Origin: Candidatus Pyrohabitans jungbluthii
Lineage (GTDB): Archaea > Hydrothermarchaeota > Hydrothermarchaeia > Hydrothermarchaeales > BMS3B
Reading direction: 5' to 3'
Length of the DNA: 64,000 bases
Assembly: GCA_002010065.2 (NCBI GenBank)
Contig: MTMD02000002.1
Coordinates: forward strand, 556,740-620,739
This document shows, in pieces, positions 3,001 through 16,561 of the stretch. Under the pieces are notes generated by a model. That model was given only the letters and a program-made list of their open reading frames with translations, was not told the origin of the DNA and made no database searches. Within the stretch, counting starts at the first letter, position 1. Each line of letters opens with the position of its first letter. The position numbers and the translations under genes are program-made.

Positions 3001-3663
3001 GAAGGTTATAGTGGGGGGTGTATTGTCGGGCGGTTGCCACGGCCAGACCACTAGAGGGTAGGGGTCCTCGTTGTTGGAATCTATGATGTAGGAACTGTCG
3101 CAGATGTTGTCCCCGTCCGAGTCAGTGCAGTCAGTGTTCTTCTCCCACTTATTGCCCACATTGTAGCCGTCGATGGTGGAGTACCAGGTGTTTGTAACTA
3201 AAAAAGTTAGAGAAATAGTTTCGTGATAATCTTCTTGGGTATTGTTGAGGTAGTTGTTGTAGTATGTAGCACCATTCCCGGTATTTTCAATACCATAGTA
3301 ATTGGAGGATATATTATTTCCTGTTATCACAGCGCTGGACCCTACTTGAATTCCTCCCTCCCAGTCGGTTATGACGCAGTTTCTTACCGTAACATTGACC
3401 AAGTCGGTGGGTATAGAAATTCCTATACTATTAGAATTATCAGTCCCATCTATTCTGTAACCCTGACAGTCAAGCACAACGTCACTTGCGGAGATAGTTA
3501 TGCAGGTGGAAGCGTAAGAGTCGATTATGTCACCTATTAGATAGTAAACACCTGAAGTGTCAATGTTAACCCCACATGAACTAATCGTCGCAGCACTACC
3601 CTCTCCAACAAGGGCAACAAAAGCTACCACCAAGCACAGGAGGAGTTGTCTTATTTTTTCCAT
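1..3663 (-). CDS. Large secreted beta-helix / Ig-repeat surface protein (partial, C-terminus outside window)
   Basis: An open frame of 1221 codons reads from an ATG at 3663 to the window edge without a stop. It starts with a signal peptide of about 24 residues (hydrophobic core LLLCLVVAFVALV). NosD/PbH1-type beta-helix repeats follow at about 30-190 and end in a Ca-binding-like DSDGDNICD motif. Several Ig/fibronectin-like modules come next, then a second beta-helix (about 684-880) ending in DTDGDGIGE, then more Ig-like modules. N-x-S/T sequons are very frequent, for example NGTNES and NKTN, so it is a likely AglB substrate. The ATG overlaps the end of the upstream surface-protein gene by 13 bp, so the two are probably co-translated. 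I infer a cell-surface adhesin or S-layer-associated protein; the ligand is unknown. Confidence 0.8.
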   Translation of the reverse strand, partial: MEKIRQLLLCLVVAFVALVGEGSAATISSCGVNIDTSGVYYLIGDIIDSYASTCITISASDVVLDCQGYRIDGTDNSNSIGISIPTDLVNVTVRNCVITDWEGGIQVGSSAVITGNNISSNYYGIENTGNGATYYNNYLNNTQEDYHETISLTFLVTNTWYSTIDGYNVGNKWEKNTDCTDSDGDNICDSSYIIDSNNEDPYPLVVWPWQPPDNTPPTITFVPPTDPDGATITDRRYTFINVTLSEPGTAWLEWNGTNESMSGSGTNWYINKTNLANGNYTYRVWANDSAGNLNVSETRTIEIAAPADTTPPLWSNPSASPPAPVSYSFSQTYQFNVTWSEPDSAIDTVLIEHNFTGSLVNYTVSSYSGSTYSYTYPSLAAGVYQWRMYANNTEGLVNATDIFYYTVSKASPTLNLTASPGWSVTYGSETNITGMETNLGDEDVTYTLYRNGTPVANPDISTLAAGVYIYVFNTSGGQNYTSGSVSQALEVLKADSSVHLYINGTRSDAVVNQFDTLNFTAVLVVPDSGNVTVTTNYSDGVDKVLVSGSSPLEVIIQMNTSGVFYFNATFEGNENYTSSFENFTVRVNPVDIAPPEIQIHSPANGSVQGDHTPLLNVSISDESTTFIWYSVDDGDNSTPFAGNTLLLNLSFLSNGLHNLTVYANDSWGNLNASAVSFTVNASVIRVPEEVPTIQAGIDYATPAETVYVAPGTYTENVFVNKSINLIGGGNTSTFIVAADPSAHALLISNTSAVNISGFTIRGANASGASGIYLYNTNGSSIQDIKVEQNYLGITLEKSHGNTISSNNITGNQDYGLKVLACFNNLIYSNFIYGSVYDSGTNYWNSSTGGNFYSGYEGWDTDGDGIGEQPYNISGGTNIDYLPLTDRLDNQAPKFENPIASRTYLRTGDTITVTVEVYDAASGVDNSSVFILYENGTVLAQMHNISQSSFMAEITVDYLEGLHTYNFSARDVAGNVNSSQQLTIVVDNTPPTLHRETPRSEEIFNISSILFRLSIEENLSNFSYCDVYINGEKNLRLNFSNLPGNSSNQTYIELSEGVYTWYANCTDSAGNSKSSESWNFTVDLSAPSTSDDAPSEWQRSEFTVNLSCTDNLSGCNYTYYRIDNSSWQEGNQIFIDTEGNHTIEYYSVDRAGNAESIKHSFAALDVTPPRVENISISSEYLTTGASLWVNASIADLLSGVNTSSIKILNENGSPISTMVEVS

Positions 3664-6239
3664 GGCACCCAAGCCTTAAACAGAGCTAATACTACTATAG
3701 AGATTAAAATAACCAGGTTAGGCCCGCAGATGCCCTTCTTCTCTGGTGATTCTCCTTCTTCAACGATTTCCTCTTTGACAACCTCCTCTTTTTTCTCAGG
3801 TGGTTGAGAATAATCTTTACCGGAAGAGGCGGCTTTCTTCTTTGCCTCTTTCACCTGCTTTTCGCTGAACATCATAATTCCAAACTCTTCAAATGGAACA
3901 ATGCTTCGGGTTTCCTGTACACTGTAGCCAGAGTTAGGGCTGCCTGAGATTGCGAAGAAACCAAACCTATCGGTTTTCACAATAAAGTAAACATATTCGT
4001 AATCCTCTGAATAGGGCATGGTTTCAAGCTCTATCCAGACATTATCTTCTTTTATGTAACCCTTGATAGTATTAACGCTTACATCATTATTTTCCAGCCA
4101 TGACTTTGCTATTCTGAATTTTATCTCTGCACTTGCAACATATGCATCAGGTTTATCAAAGTGTATTTTATAGTACCCATATACCTTTCCAGAAGGTTCC
4201 TCAAAAATGAAAGCTGGTTTTTCTTTGTGGGTATCCACACAGATCTTCGTATAGTACATATCCTGGGCTCCAATAATGCCTATTGAAGCCACATCCGGCA
4301 CTGCTTCGGGATCGAAAATCGCAGTGCCAGTGCTCCCAGCAAGTATCTTGGGAATTTCCATACAGTTCTCCGCAAGCCCGCCACCTCCACCGCCGCCCGC
4401 CGCTGGTGGAGGCGTCTCGCCCGGAGGTAGAGAAATCTCAGTAACGTTAATTGTCACCTCATCGCTCGCCACGTTCCCTGCTGTATCGCTGGCTTCCAGT
4501 TTGTAGCTCCTCAGCCCCACACTGGAGGTATCAACAGACCATTCTATTGTGCTGCCGGATGCATAGACCCCACTAACTAAGAGGGTTTCGTTTAGATATA
4601 TTCTGAAGTCTTTCGGGTGCTCCTCGGTAATTGTCCAAGTGATTGTTGTGGCGGTTCCCTGTTCAACTTCTGTTCCCGGACTAACGCTTCTGGTTATCTC
4701 AGGAGCCTCCAGATCTATCTCTATTGTTCTGCTCTCGCTGCTCCCCCAGTTTCCTGCGAGGTCTCTGCCATAAACCCTGTAGGTGTGTGTGCCGTGGGTA
4801 ATCCCAGACTTTGTCCCAGACCAGCTATCCCCAGAGCCGCTCATCGAGATATTTTCTACTCCATCCCACTCCAGCAACGCCTCGCTCAAATCTTCGGTGG
4901 CGGTTATGGCAACTGTAATACTGGTGTCAGAAGTTACTGCTCTGTCCTGAGGCGTGGGTGAAACAAAGCTTATACTTGGTGGAGAGGTGTCAGGAAGCTC
5001 AACAGTAAAACTCACAGAAGCCTCGGCGATGTTGTTCGCCAAGTCGACGGCTATAATTTTAATAGTGTGGCTACCCTCTGAGGCGTTGATGGTAATGGGC
5101 GGGCTGAAGGGCAGGTAGGCACCCCCATCTAGGGAGTAGAACCACCTTGCCACACCCTCGTCGGCGCTTACGTCGAGAGAAACCTCTGTGGAGGGGTATG
5201 TTATACTCTGGGGCGAGTTAATTGTTATCTGAGGCGGAGCTAGGTCCTTAAGTTCCTCTGGCGATGAAGTGGAATAGAGGGGTAGATTGTCACTTCCCAG
5301 AAGGCGGGTATAGGCATTGTAAGCAGAGTCTCCTATTCCATCGTTGTTGTTGTCGGTGCCGGTGTAGTCCCACCAGTAGTTGCCACCTATGTACTGCCCG
5401 CCGATGATATTTTCCCCCGAAGTTTTTGCGGTATTCCAGGTATTTGATGTATCTTCGCTTGCGGTGTTGTCCACGTATACGAAATTGTTGTAGAATAAGT
5501 TGTTTGAGGAGGAGGTTATAAAGATACCAACGGCATTCTCAACAGAAGAGTAGATAACATTGCTTTTAACAGTATTGGAGTTTGAAGAACTCTCCAAGAC
5601 TATGCCGCCATTTGATACCCCTCCCTTTATATCGTTGCCTTCTATTGTATTGGAAGAGGAGGAGCGCAGGTATATTCCCATGGATGAGCTTCCTATAATG
5701 CCGTTGTTTTTTACAATGTTTCCATCGGAATTCTTTATTCTTAGGGCCTCTCTGCTGTAGATAATCAAATTGTTTTCAACCGTCACGCTTGAAGCGTCTT
5801 CTAGCAGAATTGGATATGGGACTCCTATAAAAGCTGAATTTTTAATTGAAAATCCCTGCCCTGAAACTTTTATTCCAAATTTGGCTCCCTGGAAGACAAA
5901 ATTTGACACCTCTGCGTTGTCTGCGGTTACTGTAATCAGCGTGTCAGTTGTCCTGGGTAAAAGTATGGGGTTGTTTTTACCTAGAAGCTTTAGACTCTTG
6001 GATAGAAAAATCCCAGCCTCTTCCTCATATATACCATCGCACACCACAATCGCGTCATTGTTCGCAGCCTCGGCAACCGCCTTTCTAATAGGATTTGGGT
6101 ACTCGGAGGATGAGTAATAGCTATCTCCGTTTTCACAGGGGGCGGTCCCCTGGTAAACTACCAGAGTTGCTGCATTTACTAAAGAAAAACTCAGCATTAC
6201 AACAGCAAGCACCCACAGTTTCTCTGAATATCTATTCAT
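3651..6239 (-). CDS. Secreted NosD-like beta-helix protein with Ig-like repeats, PGF-pre-PGF-like domain and C-terminal anchor
   Basis: 862 residues from the ATG at 6239; a TTG 15 nt upstream is possible but less likely. A signal peptide (LWVLAVVMLSFSLVNA) leads into parallel beta-helix (PbH1) repeats up to about residue 290, closed by GTDNNNDGIGD. Three Ig-like modules (about 320-600) and a poly-Gly/Pro linker follow. The next 150 residues resemble the archaeal PGF-pre-PGF domain, ending with the pattern Y-x-Y-F-x-V-x-T-D-R-F-G-F-F-A-I-S-G. A charged stretch precedes Cys-Gly-Pro, a hydrophobic helix and a basic end, which resembles CGP-CTERM sorting/anchor signals. Its middle Ig module (WDG-V-E-N-ISMSGSG) is clearly related to one in the downstream gene. 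Inferred role: an anchored surface protein. Confidence 0.82.
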   Translation of the reverse strand: MNRYSEKLWVLAVVMLSFSLVNAATLVVYQGTAPCENGDSYYSSSEYPNPIRKAVAEAANNDAIVVCDGIYEEEAGIFLSKSLKLLGKNNPILLPRTTDTLITVTADNAEVSNFVFQGAKFGIKVSGQGFSIKNSAFIGVPYPILLEDASSVTVENNLIIYSREALRIKNSDGNIVKNNGIIGSSSMGIYLRSSSSNTIEGNDIKGGVSNGGIVLESSSNSNTVKSNVIYSSVENAVGIFITSSSNNLFYNNFVYVDNTASEDTSNTWNTAKTSGENIIGGQYIGGNYWWDYTGTDNNNDGIGDSAYNAYTRLLGSDNLPLYSTSSPEELKDLAPPQITINSPQSITYPSTEVSLDVSADEGVARWFYSLDGGAYLPFSPPITINASEGSHTIKIIAVDLANNIAEASVSFTVELPDTSPPSISFVSPTPQDRAVTSDTSITVAITATEDLSEALLEWDGVENISMSGSGDSWSGTKSGITHGTHTYRVYGRDLAGNWGSSESRTIEIDLEAPEITRSVSPGTEVEQGTATTITWTITEEHPKDFRIYLNETLLVSGVYASGSTIEWSVDTSSVGLRSYKLEASDTAGNVASDEVTINVTEISLPPGETPPPAAGGGGGGGLAENCMEIPKILAGSTGTAIFDPEAVPDVASIGIIGAQDMYYTKICVDTHKEKPAFIFEEPSGKVYGYYKIHFDKPDAYVASAEIKFRIAKSWLENNDVSVNTIKGYIKEDNVWIELETMPYSEDYEYVYFIVKTDRFGFFAISGSPNSGYSVQETRSIVPFEEFGIMMFSEKQVKEAKKKAASSGKDYSQPPEKKEEVVKEEIVEEGESPEKKGICGPNLVILISIVVLALFKAWVPWKK

Positions 6240-6362
6240 TCCACAGTCCCTCAAAACACTGGCACAACCTTTGAGACAAACCTAACCAGTTAAAACTTTA
6301 TCTTAAAAATTTTCATCATGATTAAAATAATTTTTTATTTTGGCAGTTTGTCAATTTAACAT

Positions 6363-6977
6363 TTATCCCTTCTTTCCCAGGTTTTTCAATCGGTTAAATA
6401 ACTTTTTCATCAATCTTACTTCATTTTTACCATTTGCAGCATATATATTTTGGTTTTCAGGTATTACATAATTAAAAACTTTAGCAAGGCAGTCATCACA
6501 GAAATATAGTGACTTTTTGTCTATTTCATAAACGCTGCTGGAGAACTTCATGTTGCAGTTCTCATTTGAGCAATGGTTTAATCCGAAGGTATGTCCCAGC
6601 TCATGAAGAGCCTCCTTCAGCAACCTTTCAAGGAAAATCTTAGAGTGGTATCCCCGGTAGTAACCCTCCATTAAGCGAACAGGTGAAATCACGGCGCACC
6701 TCCCTCCCAGGGAAGCTAATCCAAAAATATAGTCAAAGTTCGCAACTGTTATGTCCCTACTAATAACACCAAGCACTTTATCAGCTTTTGTGAATCGTAT
6801 AGTGAGGTCGTCTAAAAGGATATCTGCAAGCACCTGCCCCCTTTCATTAAACCAAAGAGGCAGTTCTTCCGGCGGAGAAATCAAAACATTTTCAAAATAC
6901 TCCTTCAACCTTAATTTCAGGTACTCAAGCCAGAACTTATTCACGTCACCAATTGGAAGAATTTCAAGAGCTACCAC
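6363..6977 (-). CDS. amzA: Archaemetzincin family zinc metalloprotease
   Basis: 204 residues from a GTG start. The diagnostic archaemetzincin pattern is complete: HELGHTFGLNHC (zinc ligands and the glycine turn), a second Cys and the Met-turn in CNMKF, then FCDDC about 17 residues on, giving the extra four-Cys zinc site. The family is a soluble metzincin aminopeptidase-like protease whose physiological substrate in archaea is unsettled. A TATA-like element at 7011-7020 sits about 35 nt upstream, so the mRNA leader is short. It is likely transcribed alone, upstream of the surface-protein pair. Confidence 0.9.
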   Translation of the reverse strand: MVALEILPIGDVNKFWLEYLKLRLKEYFENVLISPPEELPLWFNERGQVLADILLDDLTIRFTKADKVLGVISRDITVANFDYIFGLASLGGRCAVISPVRLMEGYYRGYHSKIFLERLLKEALHELGHTFGLNHCSNENCNMKFSSSVYEIDKKSLYFCDDCLAKVFNYVIPENQNIYAANGKNEVRLMKKLFNRLKNLGKKG

Positions 6978-7079: not shown

Positions 7080-8378
7080 CTAAGAGAAGCCCCACTTCCT
7101 CAGCTCTGCCTTCGCTTTCCTCCTTTTACCTTCTAATCTCGCTATCTTCTCCTCTGTCAGGGCGATGTAATCCTTAAGCTGCTTCTCAAGTTTTTCCACT
7201 TTCGCCAGCTCTATGCGTGACCTCTCATCGCTGCTCTCTCCAGAGAGTGAGTCTTTAAAATCGTAATACTTCTCCAGGCACTTCTCCATTATTCTGCGCA
7301 GACTGAAGCCGCCTAGGAGAATCATGGCATCAACGCTCTTACTCTCGGGAGAGGTGATCAAGCTGGTGTACCTCAGAATCCCTCCTCGCCCGCCTGCCAG
7401 GTGCTTCACAGCCCACTCGCGGGAGATGTCCTCTAAATCTTCCTGGGTAATCTCACCCTTCAGCACCTTCTCTTCAGGGGCGATAACTATTATGTAGGCC
7501 ATTGTGGCGGTGCCCTTGTCCAGGGGTACCATTGCGTTGTTGGAAGCGCTCTCTAGGATTGCGTCCAGGCTGAGCACATCTGGGTCATTCCCAAGGCTCA
7601 GGCAAGGGGTGAAATGGATTGTCCCTAAATTGCTGGGGAGCTGATAGTAGTCTGCGATATCTATCGTTGCCTTCGAGGCATAGGTGCTGGGCGCAATCAG
7701 CATGTGTATCGCCCTTATAATCTCCTCGTTTATCCTCTGGTAGCGCTCCTCCTTCTGCCCCCGCCCTAGGTCGAGAATATGCTCCACCTGTGAGTTGTCC
7801 ACAAGGATTACCAACGCAGCGTTCTGCTCGCCGTTATAGCGCAACAACCTTGAGAGGCCACAGATGGCGTTGAAATGCCTCTGCGGAGCCTCAAAGTCAT
7901 AGGGAAAGATGCCCAGCGCTATGAAGTTGTTTATCCTCTCCATGCCGAAGCCAGGGTTCCTCCTAACTCTGTGGATGATGTAGGGTAGCGACCCGTTGCC
8001 TGTGCCTCCTCCCAGGGTAGCGATACCAAGGAGCACATCGCTGCTCCGAAGCCTTAAGCTTGCGATGTATCTTCGTATGTTCTCGTAATCCTCAATTGCT
8101 TCTCTTTCGCCAAGAACCCAGTTGTTACCCGCGCCGCTTGGAGCCCTGCCAAAAATGCAAACCCGCTCGCGTTTTATCTTCTCGTACTTTTCCCTCAGCT
8201 CGGGGCTCTGCGCAAAGATGTGCTCCAGCGGCTTCTCGGGCTTAACGTCCGCCGGCGTTGTATTGAGGAGAAGCACTCTATCGCCGATGCTCGGATTTTT
8301 ATACTTCGCGTAGTAAAGAAAGGCTATGCGGTTTGCGCCCTGTCCGCTCGCTATTATACCCCATCTTGTAGCTTGCAT
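7080..8378 (-). CDS. Divergent tubulin/FtsZ-superfamily GTPase (second paralogue)
   Basis: 432 residues. GTPase-fold loops are recognisable. There is an N-terminal GxGQG-like loop (ASGQGANRI, 10-18) and a T3-like loop GAGNNWVLGE (82-91). The tubulin signature GGGTGNG lies at 123-129, and a T7-like ID-IAD with Asp240/Asp243 matches the catalytic Asp pair of FtsZ. Outside these it does not read as canonical FtsZ or CetZ. The C-terminal 70 residues are a charged coiled coil (EKLEKQLKDYIALTEEKIARLEG). It is the third gene of an operon with a coiled-coil membrane protein (4 nt gap) and another tubulin-like gene. I infer a filament-forming GTPase, possibly co-assembling with its paralogue. Certainty is high for the superfamily and low for the role. 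Confidence 0.8.
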   Translation of the reverse strand: MQATRWGIIASGQGANRIAFLYYAKYKNPSIGDRVLLLNTTPADVKPEKPLEHIFAQSPELREKYEKIKRERVCIFGRAPSGAGNNWVLGEREAIEDYENIRRYIASLRLRSSDVLLGIATLGGGTGNGSLPYIIHRVRRNPGFGMERINNFIALGIFPYDFEAPQRHFNAICGLSRLLRYNGEQNAALVILVDNSQVEHILDLGRGQKEERYQRINEEIIRAIHMLIAPSTYASKATIDIADYYQLPSNLGTIHFTPCLSLGNDPDVLSLDAILESASNNAMVPLDKGTATMAYIIVIAPEEKVLKGEITQEDLEDISREWAVKHLAGGRGGILRYTSLITSPESKSVDAMILLGGFSLRRIMEKCLEKYYDFKDSLSGESSDERSRIELAKVEKLEKQLKDYIALTEEKIARLEGKRRKAKAELRKWGFS

Positions 8379-8382
8379 GCTT

Positions 8383-9756
8383 TCAACCTTTGAGCTTTAA
8401 TGTTTTCTTCTCAAATTTAACCTCTGGATGTGTTTCGCTATAGCGTTTGAGGAAATCCTCGGCATAGCGCACCTTGAGTTCCTCTGCACTCACCTCGCCA
8501 TTCTCCCTGAGCTTCTGCTCTATAATCTTTTCTATCGCCGGGTAGTTTTTAGCTATCTTCACAGTCTTATATCTGGTGTCAAATTCGCCAGATAGGGTCT
8601 TAAGCACATCAAGCGCTTCCTTTGAAAACTTGGAGAAATCCTTTCTGGGGTCAAGCTTTGAGACGTACCTCTCAACCCCCTTCCTTCTTACCCCAGCCAC
8701 CTCCAGCTTTTTCAGCTCTTCTTCTAGGGCTACAATCTCCCTTGCGAGGGCTCTAGCAACCTCAAGCGTGAGCCTCTTTGCTTCTTCCCTGAGGGTGCTT
8801 AGTTCGCTGAGGTAGCCAGGGTCATCATAGCTCAGCACCTTCTCCCTAAGGCTTAAAACTGCGCGCTCCTCCTTTACAAAGTCCTCCTTGATAAACTTGA
8901 GAAGGCGCTCCAGGTAGCTAATTATCTCCTTCTTTTCCTGCAGGAAGGGCTTTGTAAGGTAGCTTGCAGCCTCGCTTCGCACCTTCTGAAGCTTGGGTAT
9001 AACCTCTACGCTATGTCGGCGCTCCTTAACTATCTCAAGCTCCTTTCTCAGGTGAACAACCTCAGCAGAGATGCTTTCGGCTGTATCTAGGAGAAACTCC
9101 GCTTCGCTGATGCACTTCTGAATTATCTTCAGATATACCTCCTCGCTTCGTCTGCGCTTTTCAAGTAGCTCTCCCAGCGTAGCGGAGGGCATCTTCACTA
9201 TTCGTCTCAGCTCTTCGTACTCCTCGCCCACAGAGAATCCGCTCTCAACCAAAGCTTTCGCGGCGCTGAGCAACTCTTCCATCCTCTTCGCTGCTGCTTC
9301 ACCATAGCTCGCAGCAGCCAGCGACTCCAGGCTGCGAAGCTGCTGCTCAACTTTCCTGCTCTCCAGCTCAATCGCGGTGAGCGTCACCTTTTCAATTTTC
9401 TTCTCGTTTACCTCAAAGTCCTTCGTGAAGAATCCTTTTGATATAAGCTCCTTCCTTATCCTCTTCAAATCCCTCATAAAGGGCTCAATGTCGATAAACT
9501 CAGAGGCTTCTTTTATGTTATCTTCTATCTTATCCAGCGCACTCCTAATTTTGTTCAGAATTTCAATTTTAAGAAGCATTACGGTCTTGTCGGTCTTGCT
9601 CTTCCACCAGGTGTAAATTAGGCTAGCAATGAGCACGGATACTATTACTCCAACCGCAAGGTAGGATACAAAGTTTATTCCAAATGTGAGGAGCAGGAAC
9701 AAGCCTGCACCCAGCGTGGCAAGGACTACCAGGGCGGTTATCACATATTCGTTCAT
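8383..9756 (-). CDS. Membrane-anchored long coiled-coil protein between two tubulin-like genes
   Basis: 457 residues. Two hydrophobic helices lie at about 5-27 and 31-51, followed by Trp-Trp-Lys and about 400 residues of charged heptad-rich helix rich in Glu, Lys and Leu, with no recognised enzyme motif. If the second helix ends inside, the coiled coil is cytoplasmic, next to the neighbouring GTPases. The layout resembles the bacterial FtsZ-binding protein EzrA (membrane anchor plus cytoplasmic helical bundles), but I see no evidence of homology. It is 2 nt after one tubulin-like gene and 4 nt before the other. Inferred role: membrane tether or regulator of the filaments. Confidence 0.72.
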   Translation of the reverse strand: MNEYVITALVVLATLGAGLFLLLTFGINFVSYLAVGVIVSVLIASLIYTWWKSKTDKTVMLLKIEILNKIRSALDKIEDNIKEASEFIDIEPFMRDLKRIRKELISKGFFTKDFEVNEKKIEKVTLTAIELESRKVEQQLRSLESLAAASYGEAAAKRMEELLSAAKALVESGFSVGEEYEELRRIVKMPSATLGELLEKRRRSEEVYLKIIQKCISEAEFLLDTAESISAEVVHLRKELEIVKERRHSVEVIPKLQKVRSEAASYLTKPFLQEKKEIISYLERLLKFIKEDFVKEERAVLSLREKVLSYDDPGYLSELSTLREEAKRLTLEVARALAREIVALEEELKKLEVAGVRRKGVERYVSKLDPRKDFSKFSKEALDVLKTLSGEFDTRYKTVKIAKNYPAIEKIIEQKLRENGEVSAEELKVRYAEDFLKRYSETHPEVKFEKKTLKLKG

Positions 9757-9758
9757 TT

Positions 9759-10958
9759 TTAAGCCTCGCTCTCAAGGAAATCTTTCTCGTATTCCTCAAG
9801 TACGCGCAGGGAGATATCTTTGTACTGGCTTGCAAGCTGGCTCAACGTCTTCAGGCGAGAAATCTGATTTGGGCGGTAGGTTAGCAACACAGTCGCCGTC
9901 GCTAGGTTGCGCTTTGTCAGGGCGACGCCGAAGTGGGTCTCTCCAAGGCGAGAGTGCTCCTCCATCACCTGCTTAGCCATGCTGGTGTTTATCCTGCCGC
10001 GCTTTGTCAGGTAAACAGGGGGGATGCGCAGCAGCACAAGGTTCTTCTCCGCGTGCTCTGGTCTAACGTCGGCGAGGGTGAGCTTCATGAAGCTCCTGTA
10101 GAGCAGGGAGATGACATCTATCTCCTTATACCCGCCGAAGGGGAAGATATAGTGCAGAAAGTTTCTCGTTCTCTCAGAAGCTCTGCCTAGGGCTGCGAAG
10201 CCAGGACGAGTGCGCTTTCCAAAGGAGAAGCTTGTCGCGGCTATCATGTCCTTGAGGTCAATCACAGGAGCGTAGCCCTCGTACTGCGATGGGTCCACAC
10301 GTTCTATCACAGTGCCTATGAGAATGTCCCGTATGCTCCTAGCAACGTACTCATTGTACCTCTGGAACAAGCTCTCGGCACTTTCTGCGTACGCAAGCTT
10401 CTGGTTGTCTACCAGAATCACAGAGTCCACGTGCTCTATGATCAGGTTTAAGCTTTCCACCGCATTTTTCGCTGTAAGACCGCCCTCATGCGTTGCTGGC
10501 AGCACAACTATGGCGATAACCGGAATTCTCATCTCCTTCAAAACGCTCGCAACCACAGGTCCAGCCCCACTCCCGGTGCCACCACCCAGAGCAAAGGCAA
10601 CAAAAGCCACGGGCACGCCTATACCCGAGCCCTCCTCGCTCTCGATGCTTAACCTCTCCACAATCGCCTCCTTCAGGTTGTCCCTGAAGCGCATGGCATC
10701 TTCCTCTGCCTTTGCGCGGTTCTTCCCGTAGCCCCCGCTCACAAAGTGCTCAAAGCCGTGGAGTGTGCCCGGGATGAACCCTCTATCCCTTGACATTCCA
10801 ATCCAGTGCTCTCGCTTTATGTTTTTGAGTGTCTGCAGGTCTAGGGTAGCCGAGTTTATGGCTATGGGCACGGCTATTTTGAACATTATCTCATCATAAA
10901 AAGCAGCGTCTATTATTGCTCCGCCGCACTGTCCCACACCTATAAAAGCGTATGGCAT
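9759..10958 (-). CDS. Tubulin/FtsZ-superfamily GTPase (CetZ/FtsZ-like)
   Basis: 399 residues from the ATG at 10958, chosen because GGTGA lies just upstream and the nucleotide-binding strand starts at once (YAFIGVGQCGGAI). A longer frame reaches 11048 but lacks similarity. T1 loop GVGQCGG is at 7-13, tubulin signature GGGTGSGAGP at 125-134, and a T7-like IDLKD with Asp234 and Asp237 at 233-237. The GQCGG element is more CetZ/tubulin-like than FtsZ-like. The first Asn of FtsZ's N-V-D-F-A-D is replaced by Val. It is the first gene of a three-gene operon that also holds a second tubulin-like gene. Inferred: a polymerising GTPase acting at the inner membrane face, in shape control, division or envelope organisation. 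Confidence 0.83.
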   Translation of the reverse strand: MPYAFIGVGQCGGAIIDAAFYDEIMFKIAVPIAINSATLDLQTLKNIKREHWIGMSRDRGFIPGTLHGFEHFVSGGYGKNRAKAEEDAMRFRDNLKEAIVERLSIESEEGSGIGVPVAFVAFALGGGTGSGAGPVVASVLKEMRIPVIAIVVLPATHEGGLTAKNAVESLNLIIEHVDSVILVDNQKLAYAESAESLFQRYNEYVARSIRDILIGTVIERVDPSQYEGYAPVIDLKDMIAATSFSFGKRTRPGFAALGRASERTRNFLHYIFPFGGYKEIDVISLLYRSFMKLTLADVRPEHAEKNLVLLRIPPVYLTKRGRINTSMAKQVMEEHSRLGETHFGVALTKRNLATATVLLTYRPNQISRLKTLSQLASQYKDISLRVLEEYEKDFLESEA

Positions 10959-10995
10959 GATTTCACCAGCTTGCTCTGAGGTAACCTCGCTGTTC

Positions 10996-11012
10996 GCTTT
11001 TATATTTATTTC
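10996..11012. promoter_or_regulatory. Divergent promoter with near-symmetric TATA element
   Basis: The A/T block TTTTATATTTATTT reads as AAATAAATATAAAA on the other strand. It lies about 40 nt before the minus-strand tubulin-like ATG (10958) and about 27-40 nt before the plus-strand ATG at 11039. It could serve both operons with very short leaders. A second A/T block (11020-11031) is too close to the plus ATG to be its TATA box. Confidence 0.45.
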
Positions 11013-11038
11013 AAAGGTCAAATATAAAATATTATTGC

Positions 11039-11989
11039 ATGGGCTCAAGGGTGCTTCTTCTCATTCTGTTCACGATTTCGTTGATTCCCAGTGTTCATTC
11101 TCTGGACTGTGGAGATGTCCTCGCGGAGCTTCGTGGCTTCACTTCGTCAGCCTTCGCTGCCTATCCAGAGCTTAGGCAGGTGAAGCAGGATACCTTGCTT
11201 CTGCTCTACTCCCAGCAACGCACAGCATGCGACATTCAGCTTTTGAACTTTGCCTCCTCTTCCATGGAGTATCTCAAAAGCATGGATGCCGCCTACCTTC
11301 TTGTAAGCAGCGCTGAGCTGGAGTCTCAGAGGGAGGGGGTGAAGAAGGCGATAGAGGCTGAGAGGTTTATCTCTGAGATGCGCTCAGATAGCACTGAGCT
11401 GGGAATCCTCGCTCAAGATGCGGTGCAAGAGGCTGAACAGGGGAGGGAGAACTTCCTACTTTCGCAGGCTCTGACCTTCGAGAGTAGGGCTGAGAAGGCT
11501 GAGAGCACAAGGGATAAGCTGGCAAACTTTGAGCTCGCCATAGCTTGCTACGAGGCGGCAGACGCTCTTCAGGCGAATAGCTTGAAGGTCAGAAAGCAGA
11601 GCTTAGAGGAGAAGTACATAGCTGACATAGTGGCAGCGCAGGAGTACCTGAGCGAAGCAATAGCTTTGCTCACGCGCGCAGAAAAGCTTGAGGTCGCCTT
11701 CCTCGGCTTTGTGGACGCGTACACCTTAGCAAGGGAAGCAAAGATGAGCCTTGTCAGGGCTAAAGAACTTTACCAGCTTCATCACGAGAAGGAGAAGCTG
11801 GCGGAGGTTGAGGAGGTCTCTATTAATGCTGAAGAAGTCTACTCCTCAACCAGAAAGAGGATTCTGATGCTATTTGCCATTGTTTCTCTAACTCTCACCT
11901 CGCTTTCGGTGTACATCCACAGCATAATTCTAAGCTGGGAAAGGGATACCTATGACTGCTATCTTGGTAACGAGCTTGTGGGGGCATAG
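11039..11989 (+). CDS. Secreted helical protein with C-terminal membrane anchor, divergent from tubulin-like operon
   Basis: 316 residues. A signal peptide (VLLLILFTISLIPSVHS) is followed by about 250 residues of charged, Ala/Glu-rich helix that look like coiled-coil or TPR-like repeats. A hydrophobic segment lies near the end (LMLFAIVSLTLTSLSVYI), with a short tail. The topology would put the helical part outside and a small tail inside. The last 130 residues before the membrane segment resemble the matching part of the next gene in pattern (AEKL...A...A+..Y..A..S+..A). The stop is 1 nt before the next ATG, so the two form an operon. No known family was recognised. Confidence 0.7.
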   Translation: MGSRVLLLILFTISLIPSVHSLDCGDVLAELRGFTSSAFAAYPELRQVKQDTLLLLYSQQRTACDIQLLNFASSSMEYLKSMDAAYLLVSSAELESQREGVKKAIEAERFISEMRSDSTELGILAQDAVQEAEQGRENFLLSQALTFESRAEKAESTRDKLANFELAIACYEAADALQANSLKVRKQSLEEKYIADIVAAQEYLSEAIALLTRAEKLEVAFLGFVDAYTLAREAKMSLVRAKELYQLHHEKEKLAEVEEVSINAEEVYSSTRKRILMLFAIVSLTLTSLSVYIHSIILSWERDTYDCYLGNELVGA

Positions 11990-11990
11990 C

Positions 11991-14021
11991 ATGCGCTTCT
12001 TGAGTATTCTTCTTGTTACGCTCTTACTCTTCGCCTCACCTGTGAGCGCCCAGGTTACGGCAAGCTTTGACTATGATGAGGTGGACTTTTACTTCGACAA
12101 GCCCAAAAATGAGGTCTCCTATTTTGAGGAGAACTTAACCTTGGAGTTCTTCAATGCAGACAATGAGAGCGCAGCGATACTCTCTGGTCTTGAGGCAACG
12201 CTCTCTGGCGAGGCGAAGGATAAGGGCATGAGTGTTGTCCTCGAGAAGAGCTATCTTCGGGTTGAACCCAACGATAAATCTTACCTCACCATTTCCTTCC
12301 GTGCACCCCCAAGCGTGCCTGAGGGCAGGTATGAAGCGAAGCTTGAGGTTAAGGGCAACTACACTTACATTACCAAGCAGGGTGTCCACACCCTACTCCA
12401 TGAATTCTACATCACAGTAAATGTTGACCACCCACCTGCGACGCTTGCGGCGAGCTGGGACCTTGCGGAATGGGGAAAGCTCAGAGCAGGGCAGAGCTTT
12501 GAGCGCACCCTCACCGTGAGGGAGGTTTATGGGTACGCTGGGGCAAGCAACGTTACGCTCTATCTCTCAAGAACAGGACCCGTGAACCTCACCTACACCT
12601 CGAGCTTAGGGGATATACCCGCAGGAGGGTCAAAGAGCATTAAGGTTAAGGTTCAGGTACCTGAGAGGTACCTTAGGCCGGGAGACTACAAAGTTGTTCC
12701 AAAGATTGTGAAAGATTACAAAACGCAGGTGTCAACGCTTGAGCAGGCTAACTATACCATCCCAAAGCCAGAGATGGCGATTTCCACCACTAAGTTAAAT
12801 TTCGGCAGGCTCACCTTTGAGGTTGGCAAGGATACAGCGACAGCAAGCATAACTGTCAGCGAGGTTGGTGGCTACACTCCAATCGAGGGTTTGAGCATCT
12901 CTCTGGTTAAGGGGGAGGAGGGGTGGGTGGGCTACACCCAGGTTAACTACATTCCCCCAGGGAGGAATGCAACAGTAAACTTTACCCTTATCCTGCCCCC
13001 GGATGCAAGCCTCGGAAAAAAAAGCTGGATTTTTGAAATAACTACTGTGCATGCCGGGAGTGTGGAGATTCTTGGGGAGGCTATAGTGTATTTCCCAGGT
13101 TTGGATGAGGCGGAGCGTTCCCTCGCTGCCCTGCCCTCGCTGCCCTCTCATCCAGAGGTCAAAGAGGCGGTGCAGAACCTGCGGGAGATGATAGCAGCCT
13201 CTAGGGATGTAACCGAACTCAGGGAGATAGCAATGGTCATGTCGGTGTACAGCGGCGTTAGCTCTTTTGTGAATATCCTAGCAGGTGCTGAAGGTAAGCC
13301 CCTTGAGGAACGCGTTGAGAGCATTATACTTGCAAAGAGGAGTCTCAACAGAGCAAAGATAGGAAGCGAGAACCTGGAGGACAGGAACTTAAAGAAGTAC
13401 GCTATACCCGCGGTTGAAGCCTTAGAGAACGTGTGGAAAAGGGAGGCAGGCTCAGCAGCAGAGGCTCTTGAGGCTGTGGTAAAGCAGAAGGAGGAAAGCG
13501 ATTACCGTGGCGCAGCGCTGGACTACAAGAGGCTTAAGACGCTTTATTCGCTGCTCGGTGAAGCTGAGAGTGCGAAGGAGTACGCCTCAAAGCAGGAGGA
13601 GATGGAGCGTGCCTATTTCAACTCCCTATCTGAGGCGATGTCCCTCCTCAGGCTTGCGGAGGAAAATGTAAGCGCAGCTAGAAGGCTCACCTTCAATATA
13701 AAGGAAGCCTCCTTTGTTATCAACCCCTTCCATTACGAGGCGGTTATGGCTTACTACGATGATGCTCTCTCCAGCGTTGAGAGGGCAAGGCTTCTTCTTG
13801 ACAGGGCGGGCGAAGATGAGGAGGCGAAGCTGCTTCAGAGGAGGATGAAAGAGCTCAAAGACAGGAAGCGCACCATTGAGAGAACCTTCAGGGTCTACCT
13901 TGCCTTCCTCACCCTCTTCTTCCTGTGGTTTGTGGCGAGGGTGACTCTGGGTCTGCTGCGCTGGATTCGTGACTCGGAGGCTCTTGCAGAGGGCGACGTG
14001 CTCCTTGGGGCCGAGGGTTAA
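11991..14021 (+). CDS. Secreted beta-sandwich plus helical protein with C-terminal membrane anchor
   Basis: 676 residues from the ATG at 11991, which begins a clean signal peptide (FLSILLVTLLLFASPVSA); an earlier in-frame ATG lies inside the previous gene. About three beta-sandwich/Ig-like domains fill 20-380, with NEW3-like phrases such as FRAPPSVPEGRYEAKLEVKG. Some 250 residues of helical, coiled-coil-like sequence follow, then a membrane helix (VYLAFLTLFFLWFVARV) and a roughly 25-residue inside tail rich in acidic residues. Its distal helical part resembles the preceding protein, suggesting partial duplication or a paired structure. It ends in a 4-bp overlap with the convergent propeller gene. 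Inferred: an external partner of the tubulin-linked machinery. Confidence 0.72.
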   Translation: MRFLSILLVTLLLFASPVSAQVTASFDYDEVDFYFDKPKNEVSYFEENLTLEFFNADNESAAILSGLEATLSGEAKDKGMSVVLEKSYLRVEPNDKSYLTISFRAPPSVPEGRYEAKLEVKGNYTYITKQGVHTLLHEFYITVNVDHPPATLAASWDLAEWGKLRAGQSFERTLTVREVYGYAGASNVTLYLSRTGPVNLTYTSSLGDIPAGGSKSIKVKVQVPERYLRPGDYKVVPKIVKDYKTQVSTLEQANYTIPKPEMAISTTKLNFGRLTFEVGKDTATASITVSEVGGYTPIEGLSISLVKGEEGWVGYTQVNYIPPGRNATVNFTLILPPDASLGKKSWIFEITTVHAGSVEILGEAIVYFPGLDEAERSLAALPSLPSHPEVKEAVQNLREMIAASRDVTELREIAMVMSVYSGVSSFVNILAGAEGKPLEERVESIILAKRSLNRAKIGSENLEDRNLKKYAIPAVEALENVWKREAGSAAEALEAVVKQKEESDYRGAALDYKRLKTLYSLLGEAESAKEYASKQEEMERAYFNSLSEAMSLLRLAEENVSAARRLTFNIKEASFVINPFHYEAVMAYYDDALSSVERARLLLDRAGEDEEAKLLQRRMKELKDRKRTIERTFRVYLAFLTLFFLWFVARVTLGLLRWIRDSEALAEGDVLLGAEG

Positions 14022-16561
14022 ATTATGCTTGCTTTGAGCCTTGAGAGCACCTCATCGTTGCGAAGCATGTCCTCTATGCACAGGAGGAGGTAATGGGAAA
14101 GGGCGAAAAATGCCCGAGCTTCGAGGTGGCTCCTCCTCCCGCCCTTCTCAAAGAGCTTCCTTGAAATCTGCCAGAGGGAAGCAAGAGGATAGGTGGAAAT
14201 CTCCTTTATTAGTGAGGTGATTTTCCTGTCCACTTCGAAAATCTCCCTCTCAAGCTCGTCCTTTGTCAGCTTTCCAAGAAGGAAGGCCACTGTTTCTTCT
14301 AAGGGTAGCGGAGGTGCACCGCAAGCTTCTGCTTTCTGCTTTGGCGAAGCTTGGTAGAGGGCGACATTCTTCCAGTCCTGCATGGCTTCGCAGAGCATTG
14401 GAACAGCCTTTTCTGCTGCACTTATAAGGGCATCCACGTGTGCCTTAGAATCACTAAATTCAGATGTCAGGGCAAGGACTTCGATGCCATCTATAATACC
14501 GTAGCCTATGCTTCTGAAGTAAGCTGGCAGGCATGGGTCGTGCTCGGCGACACGCTCATAGGCTTCGTCAAGGGAGCGGCGCAGCTCTTCAAGGCGCTCT
14601 TCTTCCTCCCTGCCAAGGCGAAGCGCAGGCTCAAGCTCCACCTCAAGCCTGTCTACTACGCTCTCTGGCGTGAATTTCTTGAATGCTGGTTTAAAGCCCT
14701 TCTTCTCCACAGAAATCGTCGTAGCTTCGGGCTTAATCCTGAGGGTGGCGAAGCCTTCTGCGTCGGTTGTAGCCTCAATGTTTCCGCTCTTTACCAGTGC
14801 TCCGGAGAGAGGCAGGCTGCTCTTTGAGCTTCTGACTCTTACCCGCAGGGTGCGAAGAGCCTCGCGAGGTTCTGTAACCTGTGCCTGAGGCTTAGCTGGC
14901 TTGCTCCTTTTAAGTAGGAAAAACAGTAGCGCAGCAAAAATTGCGAGGGCTGCAATCACAGCGGCTTTATTCCTGCTTGGCAGGCTTGTCCACCTCTCCT
15001 CGAAGAGAGGCACTGCCAAAATTTTTTCTCCAGATATTATGAAAATTCGGCTCGCGTCAGGGGAGATTGTGGCATACTTAACGCCCTTCTCAGGATAGTA
15101 CCGCCATATAAGCCTGCCTTGTTCCGCGTCGTACAGTTCAACGCTCTCTTGAGAAGCTGCAAGCAGGTAACCCCTGGCTGAGTGGAGTGAACTCATGTTC
15201 TGCTCCAGGGTTATATTCCAGAGGTGCTCACCTTTAGCAAAGGCGTGGATCTCATCCTTGAGCAGAGCGAAGACCACATCCTCATCCATGGTGACAGCAA
15301 GAATTGTTTTTTCAAAGCTTGTATTCCACACCAAAGCGCCGTCGTAGGTGTATAGATAAAGGGTGTCGTTCCCTGCAATGGCTATGCTCTCATTGGATAT
15401 CGCTAAGCTAGCTGGCTTGAACTCAAGCTGCTTTGTCCAGAGCAGCGCGCCCGCGGTGTTGAAGAGGTACAGAGTATTACCGGCAATCACGCTTGAGCCC
15501 CGAGGGGAAGCGGCGAGAAGCTCAGTATTCTTATCAATGCTCGCGTTCCACACCTTCTGAGTGCCCCTGTACATGGAGAGTAGGTTTTTCTCAGCCACTA
15601 AGGAGTACTCCTCCGAGGCTGCAATCATGGGTGAAGTTTTCAGTGTTATAGAGGCGAGCATCTCTCCCGTGGGCTTGAGGATGTACACCTCATTTCCCGC
15701 GACGGCGATAAGGTTCTGCGAGGTGGCGTGAAGCTGGGCAGGTGAGCGTGGAAGCAGTATCTCATAGAACTCAAGCCCCGCCTGAGAGAGGTTTACAAGG
15801 CGAACCCTTCTCGAAGCCTTGAAGCTCTGATTTCCCAGCGATACCACAACCTCTATTGGATACTCACCAGGGGGCAAGCCCGAGGTGTTCCAGTTGTAGG
15901 GCAGAGTCTCCGCAGTCTGGGTGCCGTTGATAAGCACAGCCACTGTCGCATTCTCTGGCACAATCGTGGCATTTATTGCAATGCTCTCGCCGGTGGTGAA
16001 AACCTCTCCAGGTTTGGGGGAAGTTATTTCCGCATAGAGCGCAGGTGTGGTGTTGAGTACCTTAACCTCTGCGAAGGCAAAGGCTACGGCACAGCGCCCA
16101 AGGGAGGAGCACTGCTGGGGTGAGCACAGGTTGCTCGCCTCGCTGTTTGAGGCAAAGCTGGTGTCGAAGGCAAACACAGCAGTGAGCCTGTAGCTTCCCG
16201 GCTTTCGTGGAGCAAAGAAGCTGAACTCCACTGAAACGCTCTGGTTGGGAAGGGCGCTACCTGAGTATAGCTTGGCTACCTCAGCTTTGCTCCAGTTTCC
16301 GAAGAGGTTGACCCTCGCTTCGCCGGTAGCGTAGTTTCCAAACTTCCATGAGAGAACACCCCTCACATGCTGCCCCGGAGCGACGCTTATGCTGCTCTGA
16401 ACCCCCTTTGCATTAGGGTCAAGGTCAAAGGAGGAGAGGGTTATCACTTCGAGGTTTTTTCCAGGGGTGGCGTAGTAGACATCCTTGGGGCATAGAGAAT
16501 AAGCCTGGGGAAGAGCAAAGGCTATGAGGATGAGAAGAACAACCTTCCTCAGCATGCACAT
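14018..16561 (-). CDS. One-pass membrane protein: external Ig and beta-propeller domains, internal helical domain
   Basis: 847 residues; GGGGGT lies 8 nt before the ATG. A signal peptide (VVLLILIAFALPQAYS) leads into a beta-sandwich region (to about 170) and an Ig-like domain (about 175-255, SPKPGEVFTTGESIAINATI). Seven or so PQQ/WD-like beta-propeller blades follow (about 265-525, repeated W-x-x-x-L/I-E/D units). One membrane helix is at about 535-555. Inside there is a carboxypeptidase-regulatory/PEGA-like beta domain (about 575-650, ALVKSGNIEATTDAEGFATL). A roughly 190-residue helical domain without recognised motif ends the protein. It could transmit an outside signal or load to the cytoplasm. 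It is convergent with the helical-anchor operon by a 4-bp overlap; its function is unknown. Confidence 0.72.
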   Translation of the reverse strand: MCMLRKVVLLILIAFALPQAYSLCPKDVYYATPGKNLEVITLSSFDLDPNAKGVQSSISVAPGQHVRGVLSWKFGNYATGEARVNLFGNWSKAEVAKLYSGSALPNQSVSVEFSFFAPRKPGSYRLTAVFAFDTSFASNSEASNLCSPQQCSSLGRCAVAFAFAEVKVLNTTPALYAEITSPKPGEVFTTGESIAINATIVPENATVAVLINGTQTAETLPYNWNTSGLPPGEYPIEVVVSLGNQSFKASRRVRLVNLSQAGLEFYEILLPRSPAQLHATSQNLIAVAGNEVYILKPTGEMLASITLKTSPMIAASEEYSLVAEKNLLSMYRGTQKVWNASIDKNTELLAASPRGSSVIAGNTLYLFNTAGALLWTKQLEFKPASLAISNESIAIAGNDTLYLYTYDGALVWNTSFEKTILAVTMDEDVVFALLKDEIHAFAKGEHLWNITLEQNMSSLHSARGYLLAASQESVELYDAEQGRLIWRYYPEKGVKYATISPDASRIFIISGEKILAVPLFEERWTSLPSRNKAAVIAALAIFAALLFFLLKRSKPAKPQAQVTEPREALRTLRVRVRSSKSSLPLSGALVKSGNIEATTDAEGFATLRIKPEATTISVEKKGFKPAFKKFTPESVVDRLEVELEPALRLGREEEERLEELRRSLDEAYERVAEHDPCLPAYFRSIGYGIIDGIEVLALTSEFSDSKAHVDALISAAEKAVPMLCEAMQDWKNVALYQASPKQKAEACGAPPLPLEETVAFLLGKLTKDELEREIFEVDRKITSLIKEISTYPLASLWQISRKLFEKGGRRSHLEARAFFALSHYLLLCIEDMLRNDEVLSRLKASII

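Follow-up and report, generated by a model that had tools for sequence, protein, structure and literature searches.

We propose that six adjacent genes of Candidatus Pyrohabitans jungbluthii, at positions 7080 to 16561 of the 64,000-nucleotide stretch of contig MTMD02000002.1 analysed here (the window), encode a single envelope-spanning machine with two tubulin-like GTPases that remodels the membrane or organises surface proteins; we give this reading a probability of roughly 0.6. Archaeal filaments of the tubulin family serve in division (FtsZ) and in cell shape (CetZ), and to our knowledge few membrane partners are known for either of them in archaea. The block may offer a concrete parts list for an archaeal machine reaching from the cytoskeleton to the envelope: gene order in more than one phylum connects two tubulin GTPases, catalytically intact by motif, with a putative tether and candidate surface receptors or couplers, and in haloarchaea with an ESCRT-like set as well. 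The six genes, with the promoter region between them, are the following.

TubB, 7080..8378, minus strand: tubulin-superfamily GTPase of 432 amino acids (aa), with G-loop GGGTGNG, T7 motif D240xxD243 and a helical C-terminal tail.
CC, 8383..9756, minus strand: predicted membrane anchor of 457 aa, with two N-terminal transmembrane (TM) helices, a helical-bundle rod and a winged-helix-like end (about residues 403-457).
TubA, 9759..10958, minus strand: tubulin-superfamily GTPase of 399 aa, with its ATG at 10958, G-loop GGGTGSG and T7 motif D235xxD238.
Divergent promoter region, 10959..11038, 80 bp: common to the TubA-CC-TubB and E1-E2 sides.
E1, 11039..11989, plus strand: signal peptide, outer helical domain, C-terminal TM helix 275-293 and a short inner tail.
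E2, 11991..14021, plus strand: signal peptide, immunoglobulin (Ig)/NEW3-like domains, E1-like helical domain and C-terminal TM helix 637-655 (numbered in the 676-aa form).
E3, 14018..16561, minus strand, likely start 16555: convergent with E2; predicted to span the membrane once, with Ig and propeller domains outside and a sandwich and helices inside.

All six open reading frames called earlier from the letters alone (hereafter, the sequence-only reading) were found at the coordinates given, arranged in three transcription units. The very short gaps claimed within the tubulin operon measure 4 nt between TubB and CC and 2 nt between CC and TubA. The A/T-rich promoter region said to be shared by the two divergent operons contains two facing TATA-like elements, at about 10996-11041, and its reality is supported by an element, GCTTTTATATTTA...TTAC-AAGGTCAAATATAAAACATTATTGCATG, that five genomes of the genus share almost letter for letter, although the DNA on either side of it differs. 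E1 is probably leaderless, and E2 likely starts at 11991, with the signal peptide MRFLSILLVTLLLFASPVSAQ, rather than at 11952.

The arrangement is kept among the relatives of the host, which are Hydrothermarchaeota. The host genome itself measures 1.99 Mb and is 99.95% complete, and the closest named match of its TubB is from Candidatus Pyrohabitans JdFR-17 (89% identity). CC was found in 14 of 61 genomes, all of them Hydrothermarchaeota from a single taxonomic order, and in each of the 14 it stands directly between TubA and TubB. The divergent E1-E2 pair comes next in each of the ten relatives whose contigs extend far enough, followed by E3 in seven of the eight that can be tested, no E3 being detected in G006. 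Identities to the window proteins are 68-95% for TubA and 56-89% for TubB and go down to 30% for CC; the synteny of the block holds among relatives at protein identities as low as 30-40%.

The same six families stand together again in haloarchaea, which belong to a different phylum. Relatives of TubB were located by scanning contigs for the exact patterns PSGAGNNW and TLGGGTGNG, so the 53 loci collected are no census; they come from Altiarchaeota, ANME-2, a Micrarchaeota-labelled metagenome-assembled genome (MAG) and haloarchaea. In 17 of 17 long haloarchaeal loci the block reads TubA-(secreted protein)-CC-TubB-E3-E1-E2, with the same membership as in Hydrothermarchaeota and a changed strand order. 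Comparison by hhalign joins the window proteins to these counterparts: CC at 99.6% (E 5.5e-25), E1 at E 1.3e-19, E2 at 100% (E 3.7e-39, 609 columns) and E3 at 99.0% (E 6.2e-18) through its conserved inner C-terminal half. The sequence-only reading had staked its case on the genes being neighbours in related genomes, and had proposed profile searches with tabulation of co-occurrence across archaea; the six families do recur as a block in distant archaea, and their members are neighbours in Hydrothermarchaeota and in haloarchaea alike.

The haloarchaeal block borders the gene set of Halo_adaptin, a system of the ESCRT (endosomal sorting complex required for transport) type (Makarova et al. 2024, PMC10936438). 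The accessible part of that paper gives as its components a Vps4-like ATPase, an ESCRT-III-like protein, winged-helix proteins and adaptin-like propeller proteins, and also lists one CetZ-related protein, one membrane protein and Ig proteins, including two further ones; compared by description only, the last three resemble the haloarchaeal counterparts of the window families. Full-length CC is found in 15 of 145 sampled haloarchaea (about 10%), and a Vps4-like ATPase in 13 of these 15 as against none of 20 haloarchaea without CC (~7e-8, a figure that ignores shared ancestry). In most genomes the homologues of all six window genes adjoin the ATPase, and they accompany it even where it is unlinked, which is the case in three haloarchaea with CC (the loci of two were inspected). 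In G417, the split leaves the tubulin/envelope genes on one side and the ESCRT-like genes on the other.

Upstream in haloarchaeal loci lies a third, very divergent tubulin-family gene, TubX (L079:2014-3675, L081:1151-2740, L088:1052-2899), with a cysteine-rich, zinc-finger-like N-terminus and without a canonical G-box. Two further haloarchaeal genomes hold the six-gene block and have no Vps4-like ATPase, and their loci consist of the core without TubX and its two neighbouring membrane/coiled-coil genes. Given these genomes and those with an unlinked ATPase, three parts can be told apart in the haloarchaeal locus: the tubulin/envelope core, an extension, and a module of ESCRT-like genes. Among the Hydrothermarchaeota examined no orthologue of the Vps4-like ATPase was found, generic AAA matches lying at E ~1e-10 to 1e-4 compared with <=1e-75 in haloarchaea; a Snf7 model, which controls show to be insensitive, had no match at E 0.1 in the host genome or in eight family relatives.

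Both GTPases belong to the tubulin/FtsZ superfamily. The G-box GGGTGxG and the T7 Asp-x-x-Asp by which that superfamily is recognised are present in each, in the stretches LGGGTGSG (TubA) and TLGGGTGNG (TubB) and as D235-LK-D238 and D240-IA-D243, as the sequence-only reading had it. The Pfam Tubulin model matches TubA at 8.6e-24 and TubB at 1.4e-7, the latter with 32.5 bits against a cut-off of 33 (0.5 bit short, in one scan). GGGTGNG and both T7 aspartates are found unchanged in every one of 55 TubB homologues. The TubA homologues keep the G-loop and T7 as well, excepting solitary paralogues in ANME-2 and Altiarchaeota and one haloarchaeal sequence with E-x-x-D. In known members of the superfamily the T7 aspartates of one subunit contribute to the active site of the next, completing it at the polymer interface. 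Since these residues are conserved here, it is likely, as far as motifs can tell, that TubA and TubB polymerise.

In a tree of 60 rows, in which some long branches make the deeper joins unsure, TubA and TubB form separate clades (support 100/100 and 100/99). Neither lies within the FtsZ1/FtsZ2 clade (100/100), and in TIGR00065, with an equivalog cut-off of 295.2 bits, TubA scores 79.7 and TubB 38 bits; an FtsZ identity is thus rejected. The clade with the haloarchaeal CetZ-type genes (99/94), reference rows not individually confirmed as CetZ1 or CetZ2, contains neither of the two, which excludes them from CetZ. The best PDB match of TubA, 4b46, points to distant kinship only; we take that entry to be a CetZ structure deposited as FtsZ. 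FtsZl1 (Tubulin_2) was rejected also, TubA scoring 11.7 bits in PF13809 against a cut-off of 27 and TubB giving no match. The host has, beyond the window, a cluster of three CetZ-clade genes (G000:C2:455352-459550, equivalent to L036:10352-14550), two of which have a gene for a 272-aa, probably secreted protein between them, and most of the Hydrothermarchaeota searched also have CetZ-type genes in tandem. Together with FtsZ1, FtsZ2, TubA and TubB, this brings the host to seven tubulin-family genes.

CC had been described as a two-helix membrane protein with about 400 residues of coiled coil. The two helices are there, both N-terminal (5-23 and 29-47), but the coiled coil is replaced, in an AlphaFold2 model of mean pLDDT 90.1, by a cytoplasmic chain of successive helical bundles with a winged-helix-like end. 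That C-terminal unit, H-E-H-H-E-E in its order of helices and strands, overlays a winged helix (BrxR, Z 7.0, root-mean-square deviation (rmsd) 2.2 A over 55 residues), a likeness of the model; in Pfam it had one weak, unrelated match (L27_2). Foldseek returned nothing for CC at E < 0.28. Structural alignment of the rod brought up argininosuccinate lyase-like helices, EzrA (Z 7.7, rmsd 32 A over 263 residues), PRC1 (Z 7.4) and ALIX, all within the noise range for helical bundles. CC is not a SepF, as the PF04472 domain is absent. With EzrA, the bacterial FtsZ-binding protein with a spectrin-like rod, it shares an N-terminal membrane anchor and a cytoplasmic helical-bundle rod, and it adjoins tubulin-family GTPases; however, CC has two TM helices and the winged-helix-like domain, and the fold match is weak. 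The resemblance is one of analogy, not homology.

By predicted topology, both E1 and E2 are type I membrane proteins; E1 is homologous to the membrane-proximal part of E2, and a juxtamembrane helical domain is common to both (hhalign 96.7%, E 4e-10). The sequence-only reading called both of them secreted, C-terminally anchored helical proteins, which is right for E1 and, as to the anchor, for E2; as a description of E2, helical is incomplete, because Ig/NEW3-like domains precede its helical domain and TM helix. For E3 the outside beta-propeller, single TM helix and inside helical domain had all been foreseen, and the model (mean pLDDT 82) adds two Ig domains and an inner sandwich: the order is signal peptide, two Ig domains, seven-bladed propeller (260-520), TM helix 529-551, a beta-sandwich resembling transthyretin (570-643) and a helical domain (651-844). 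With its signal peptide, and with basic residues C-terminal to the TM helix, E3 is predicted to have its propeller outside, so that the topology as a whole has Ig and propeller domains on the outer side and the sandwich, the helices and the CC rod on the inner one. So many propellers tie with that of E3, at Z 25-27, that no functional neighbour can be named. Family, defence and phage profile searches assigned none of the three envelope proteins to a family known for some unrelated role; such an assignment was one of the two findings by which the sequence-only reading would have been refuted. A defence system was rejected, PADLOC giving only one weak match (PDC-S28, E 0.0027), and so was a phage origin, PHROG giving only weak tubulin-type matches (PhuZ and one of unknown function).

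Other archaea contain parts of the set. In the Micrarchaeota-labelled MAG, CC, TubB and the inner half of E3 are adjacent, with TubA nearby; the E3 gene is reduced to the TM helix and the inner part, and TubA (L057:14818-16440) has an extra C-terminal domain that matches the inner beta-sandwich of E3 (E 4e-6). The haloarchaeal CC, too, has a weak match to this domain type. The fusion and the weak match together hint at a cytoplasmic complex. In Altiarchaeota, the orthologues of TubA, TubB and CC are at separate places; apart from them lies a cluster of paralogues (L132:1560-15126) with an E2-like gene, a propeller-TM gene, an E1-like gene and two divergent tubulin-like genes. In ANME-2 a TubA-like and an E1-like gene are arranged head-to-head (L134), and the lone TubB is head-to-head with a conserved gene of 475-480 aa (L062:8436-11263, L065:7882-10705, L069:7062-9904, L070:8440-11263). 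The latter is a candidate gene for the acetyl-CoA synthase beta subunit CdhC.

The following picture would accommodate these observations. TubA and TubB most likely polymerise along the membrane on its cytoplasmic side, either jointly or as filaments that run in parallel, and CC would tether them by its two-helix membrane hairpin and cytoplasmic rod. E3 would couple inside to outside, from the surface propeller and Ig domains through its one TM helix to the inner sandwich and helical domain. E1 and E2, as surface proteins, probably have E3, the S-layer or a ligand as their binding partner, and the sites that the surface proteins mark would be those where filaments gather the membrane or deform it. 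In Hydrothermarchaeota the core would work without an ESCRT-like module. In haloarchaea a Vps4/ESCRT-III-like and adaptin-like module would have been added to it, with scission where the ESCRT-like genes are present; because this module is joined to the core there, the likely output in haloarchaea is cargo-selected budding or another remodelling step. The link of GTPase filaments to the envelope that had been claimed is strengthened by gene linkage, catalytic motifs and shared domains. What the analysis establishes is the linkage, the topology, the conservation of the motifs and the co-occurrence; polymerisation, the contacts between the proteins, the cargo and the remodelling output are what we infer.

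Several findings weigh against this picture. TubB is solitary in ANME-2 and Altiarchaeota, which suggests that the GTPase can work outside the block, and the TubA-like proteins of ANME-2 (L134:8571-9623, L065:17284-18318) have a degenerate G-box and T7 and are possibly non-polymerising derivatives. Some members of the order have no CC, including the 98% complete G005, so the system is dispensable. Fold comparison ties CC strongly to no known filament tether, and a sequence-profile search of the PDB with its C-terminal unit found no winged helix, for which reason that assignment is a structural one. Finally, the connection with ESCRT stops short of Hydrothermarchaeota.

The best-placed alternative, which we nevertheless consider unlikely, is that the tubulins act in the manner of CetZ, shaping the cell or positioning pili, archaella or secretion, with the envelope proteins anchoring filaments to the S-layer and no budding or sorting taking place. 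CetZ, a related tubulin, controls shape and motility in Haloferax. It has also been linked to type IV pili (PMC9856176). That the minimal core of Hydrothermarchaeota and of two haloarchaea has no Vps4-like partner would suit such a role, as would the build of E1, E2 and E3, which resembles that of surface structural proteins. However, the CetZ clade includes neither TubA nor TubB, and the genes seen next to the block include none for pili, archaella or chemotaxis. In haloarchaea the core and the ESCRT-like genes occur together so tightly that remodelling or sorting is indicated.

An accessory part in division or abscission, as a second ring with its own tether acting with or after FtsZ1, FtsZ2 and SepF, is distinctly improbable. 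The host has all three of these elsewhere (SepF at G000:C14), so that division is already catered for and the block is an additional system. Nor would one expect a large surface propeller in such a role, or so patchy a distribution, with the system in about a tenth of sampled haloarchaea and absent from near-complete Hydrothermarchaeota. Speaking for a division role are the logic of tubulin GTPases plus tether, which is that of FtsZ and SepF, and the haloarchaeal Vps4/ESCRT-like partner, which could supply scission.

There is a still smaller chance that E1, E2 and E3 sense a ligand or a neighbouring cell, the tubulins being a GTP-dependent switch without long filaments. Large outer Ig and propeller domains on single-pass couplers are what such a receptor module might look like, and the T7 aspartates could equally serve a GTPase stimulated by dimerisation; but their conservation in both GTPases recalls the polymer-interface role that they have in known members of the superfamily, and among the genes of the core none was seen that encodes a kinase or a regulator. 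As for six unrelated genes that are neighbours by chance, for which one might cite the three transcription units and the scattered altiarchaeal orthologues, the conservation of the block across the order, and again in haloarchaea with the same members despite strand changes, leaves this a negligible prospect and rules out chance clustering.

Returning to the envelope-spanning machine, its nearest known relatives each describe a part of it. Halo_adaptin differs in that Hydrothermarchaeota and two haloarchaea hold the six-gene core without a Vps4-like ATPase, and in that the haloarchaeal locus has three tubulin-family genes (TubX, TubA and TubB) whereas the accessible part of PMC10936438 gives one. 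The divergent archaeal tubulins named Halo.Tub (Santana-Molina et al. 2023, PMC9871819) occur in quasi-tandem with coiled-coil neighbours, as in the block if descriptions alone are compared, and CetZ-like sequences are reported there from Altiarchaeota and relatives of Methanosarcina also; that paper treats single proteins of unclear context, however, and does not define a core of two GTPases, tether and envelope proteins. In FtsZl1 (Tubulin_2) systems, one operon brings together a divergent tubulin GTPase, membrane proteins and predicted coiled coils, and membrane remodelling has been proposed as their role (Makarova and Koonin 2010, PMC2875224). TubA and TubB, by contrast, lie outside Tubulin_2 and keep T7, and the block has no vWA, OmpA or kinase neighbours. 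The FtsZ1/FtsZ2 and SepF pairing shares the plan of tubulin GTPases plus membrane tether, but its GTPases form separate clades and CC is not SepF.

In the open literature we found no paper that defines an ESCRT-free six-gene core, the two GTPase clades or their presence in Hydrothermarchaeota. The word undescribed, applied to the system by the sequence-only reading, may stand for the ESCRT-free core across phyla and does not hold for the haloarchaeal counterpart, parts of which are apparently described in PMC9871819 and in the accessible portion of PMC10936438. It is tempting to propose that the core is an ancient, self-contained and ESCRT-independent two-tubulin envelope machine, with two GTPase polymers, one tether and a receptor-like coupler, that was later recruited by haloarchaeal ESCRT, although we hold this tentatively, at somewhat below even odds. 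If it is true, tubulin-based and ESCRT-based remodelling would be fused in one archaeal system. The block opens a route to asking whether tubulin and ESCRT modules cooperate outside eukaryotes. Simple gene removal could give the answer, since there are culturable haloarchaea with the block, such as relatives of Haloquadratum, Halorubrum, Halorussus or Natrinema, and two of the genomes have no Vps4-like ATPase.

Two neighbouring regions of the window may be mentioned. After TubB lie a NosD/beta-helix surface protein (3651-6254) and an M54 archaemetzincin (6363-6977); beta-helix proteins and M54 adjoin the block in most of the genus and not outside it. Farther away, positions 41984-63946 form a mostly low-GC run (0.33-0.40) with phosphodiesterase-like genes, one flippase-like gene, sugar epimerases and glycosyltransferases, and this is a surface glycan island.

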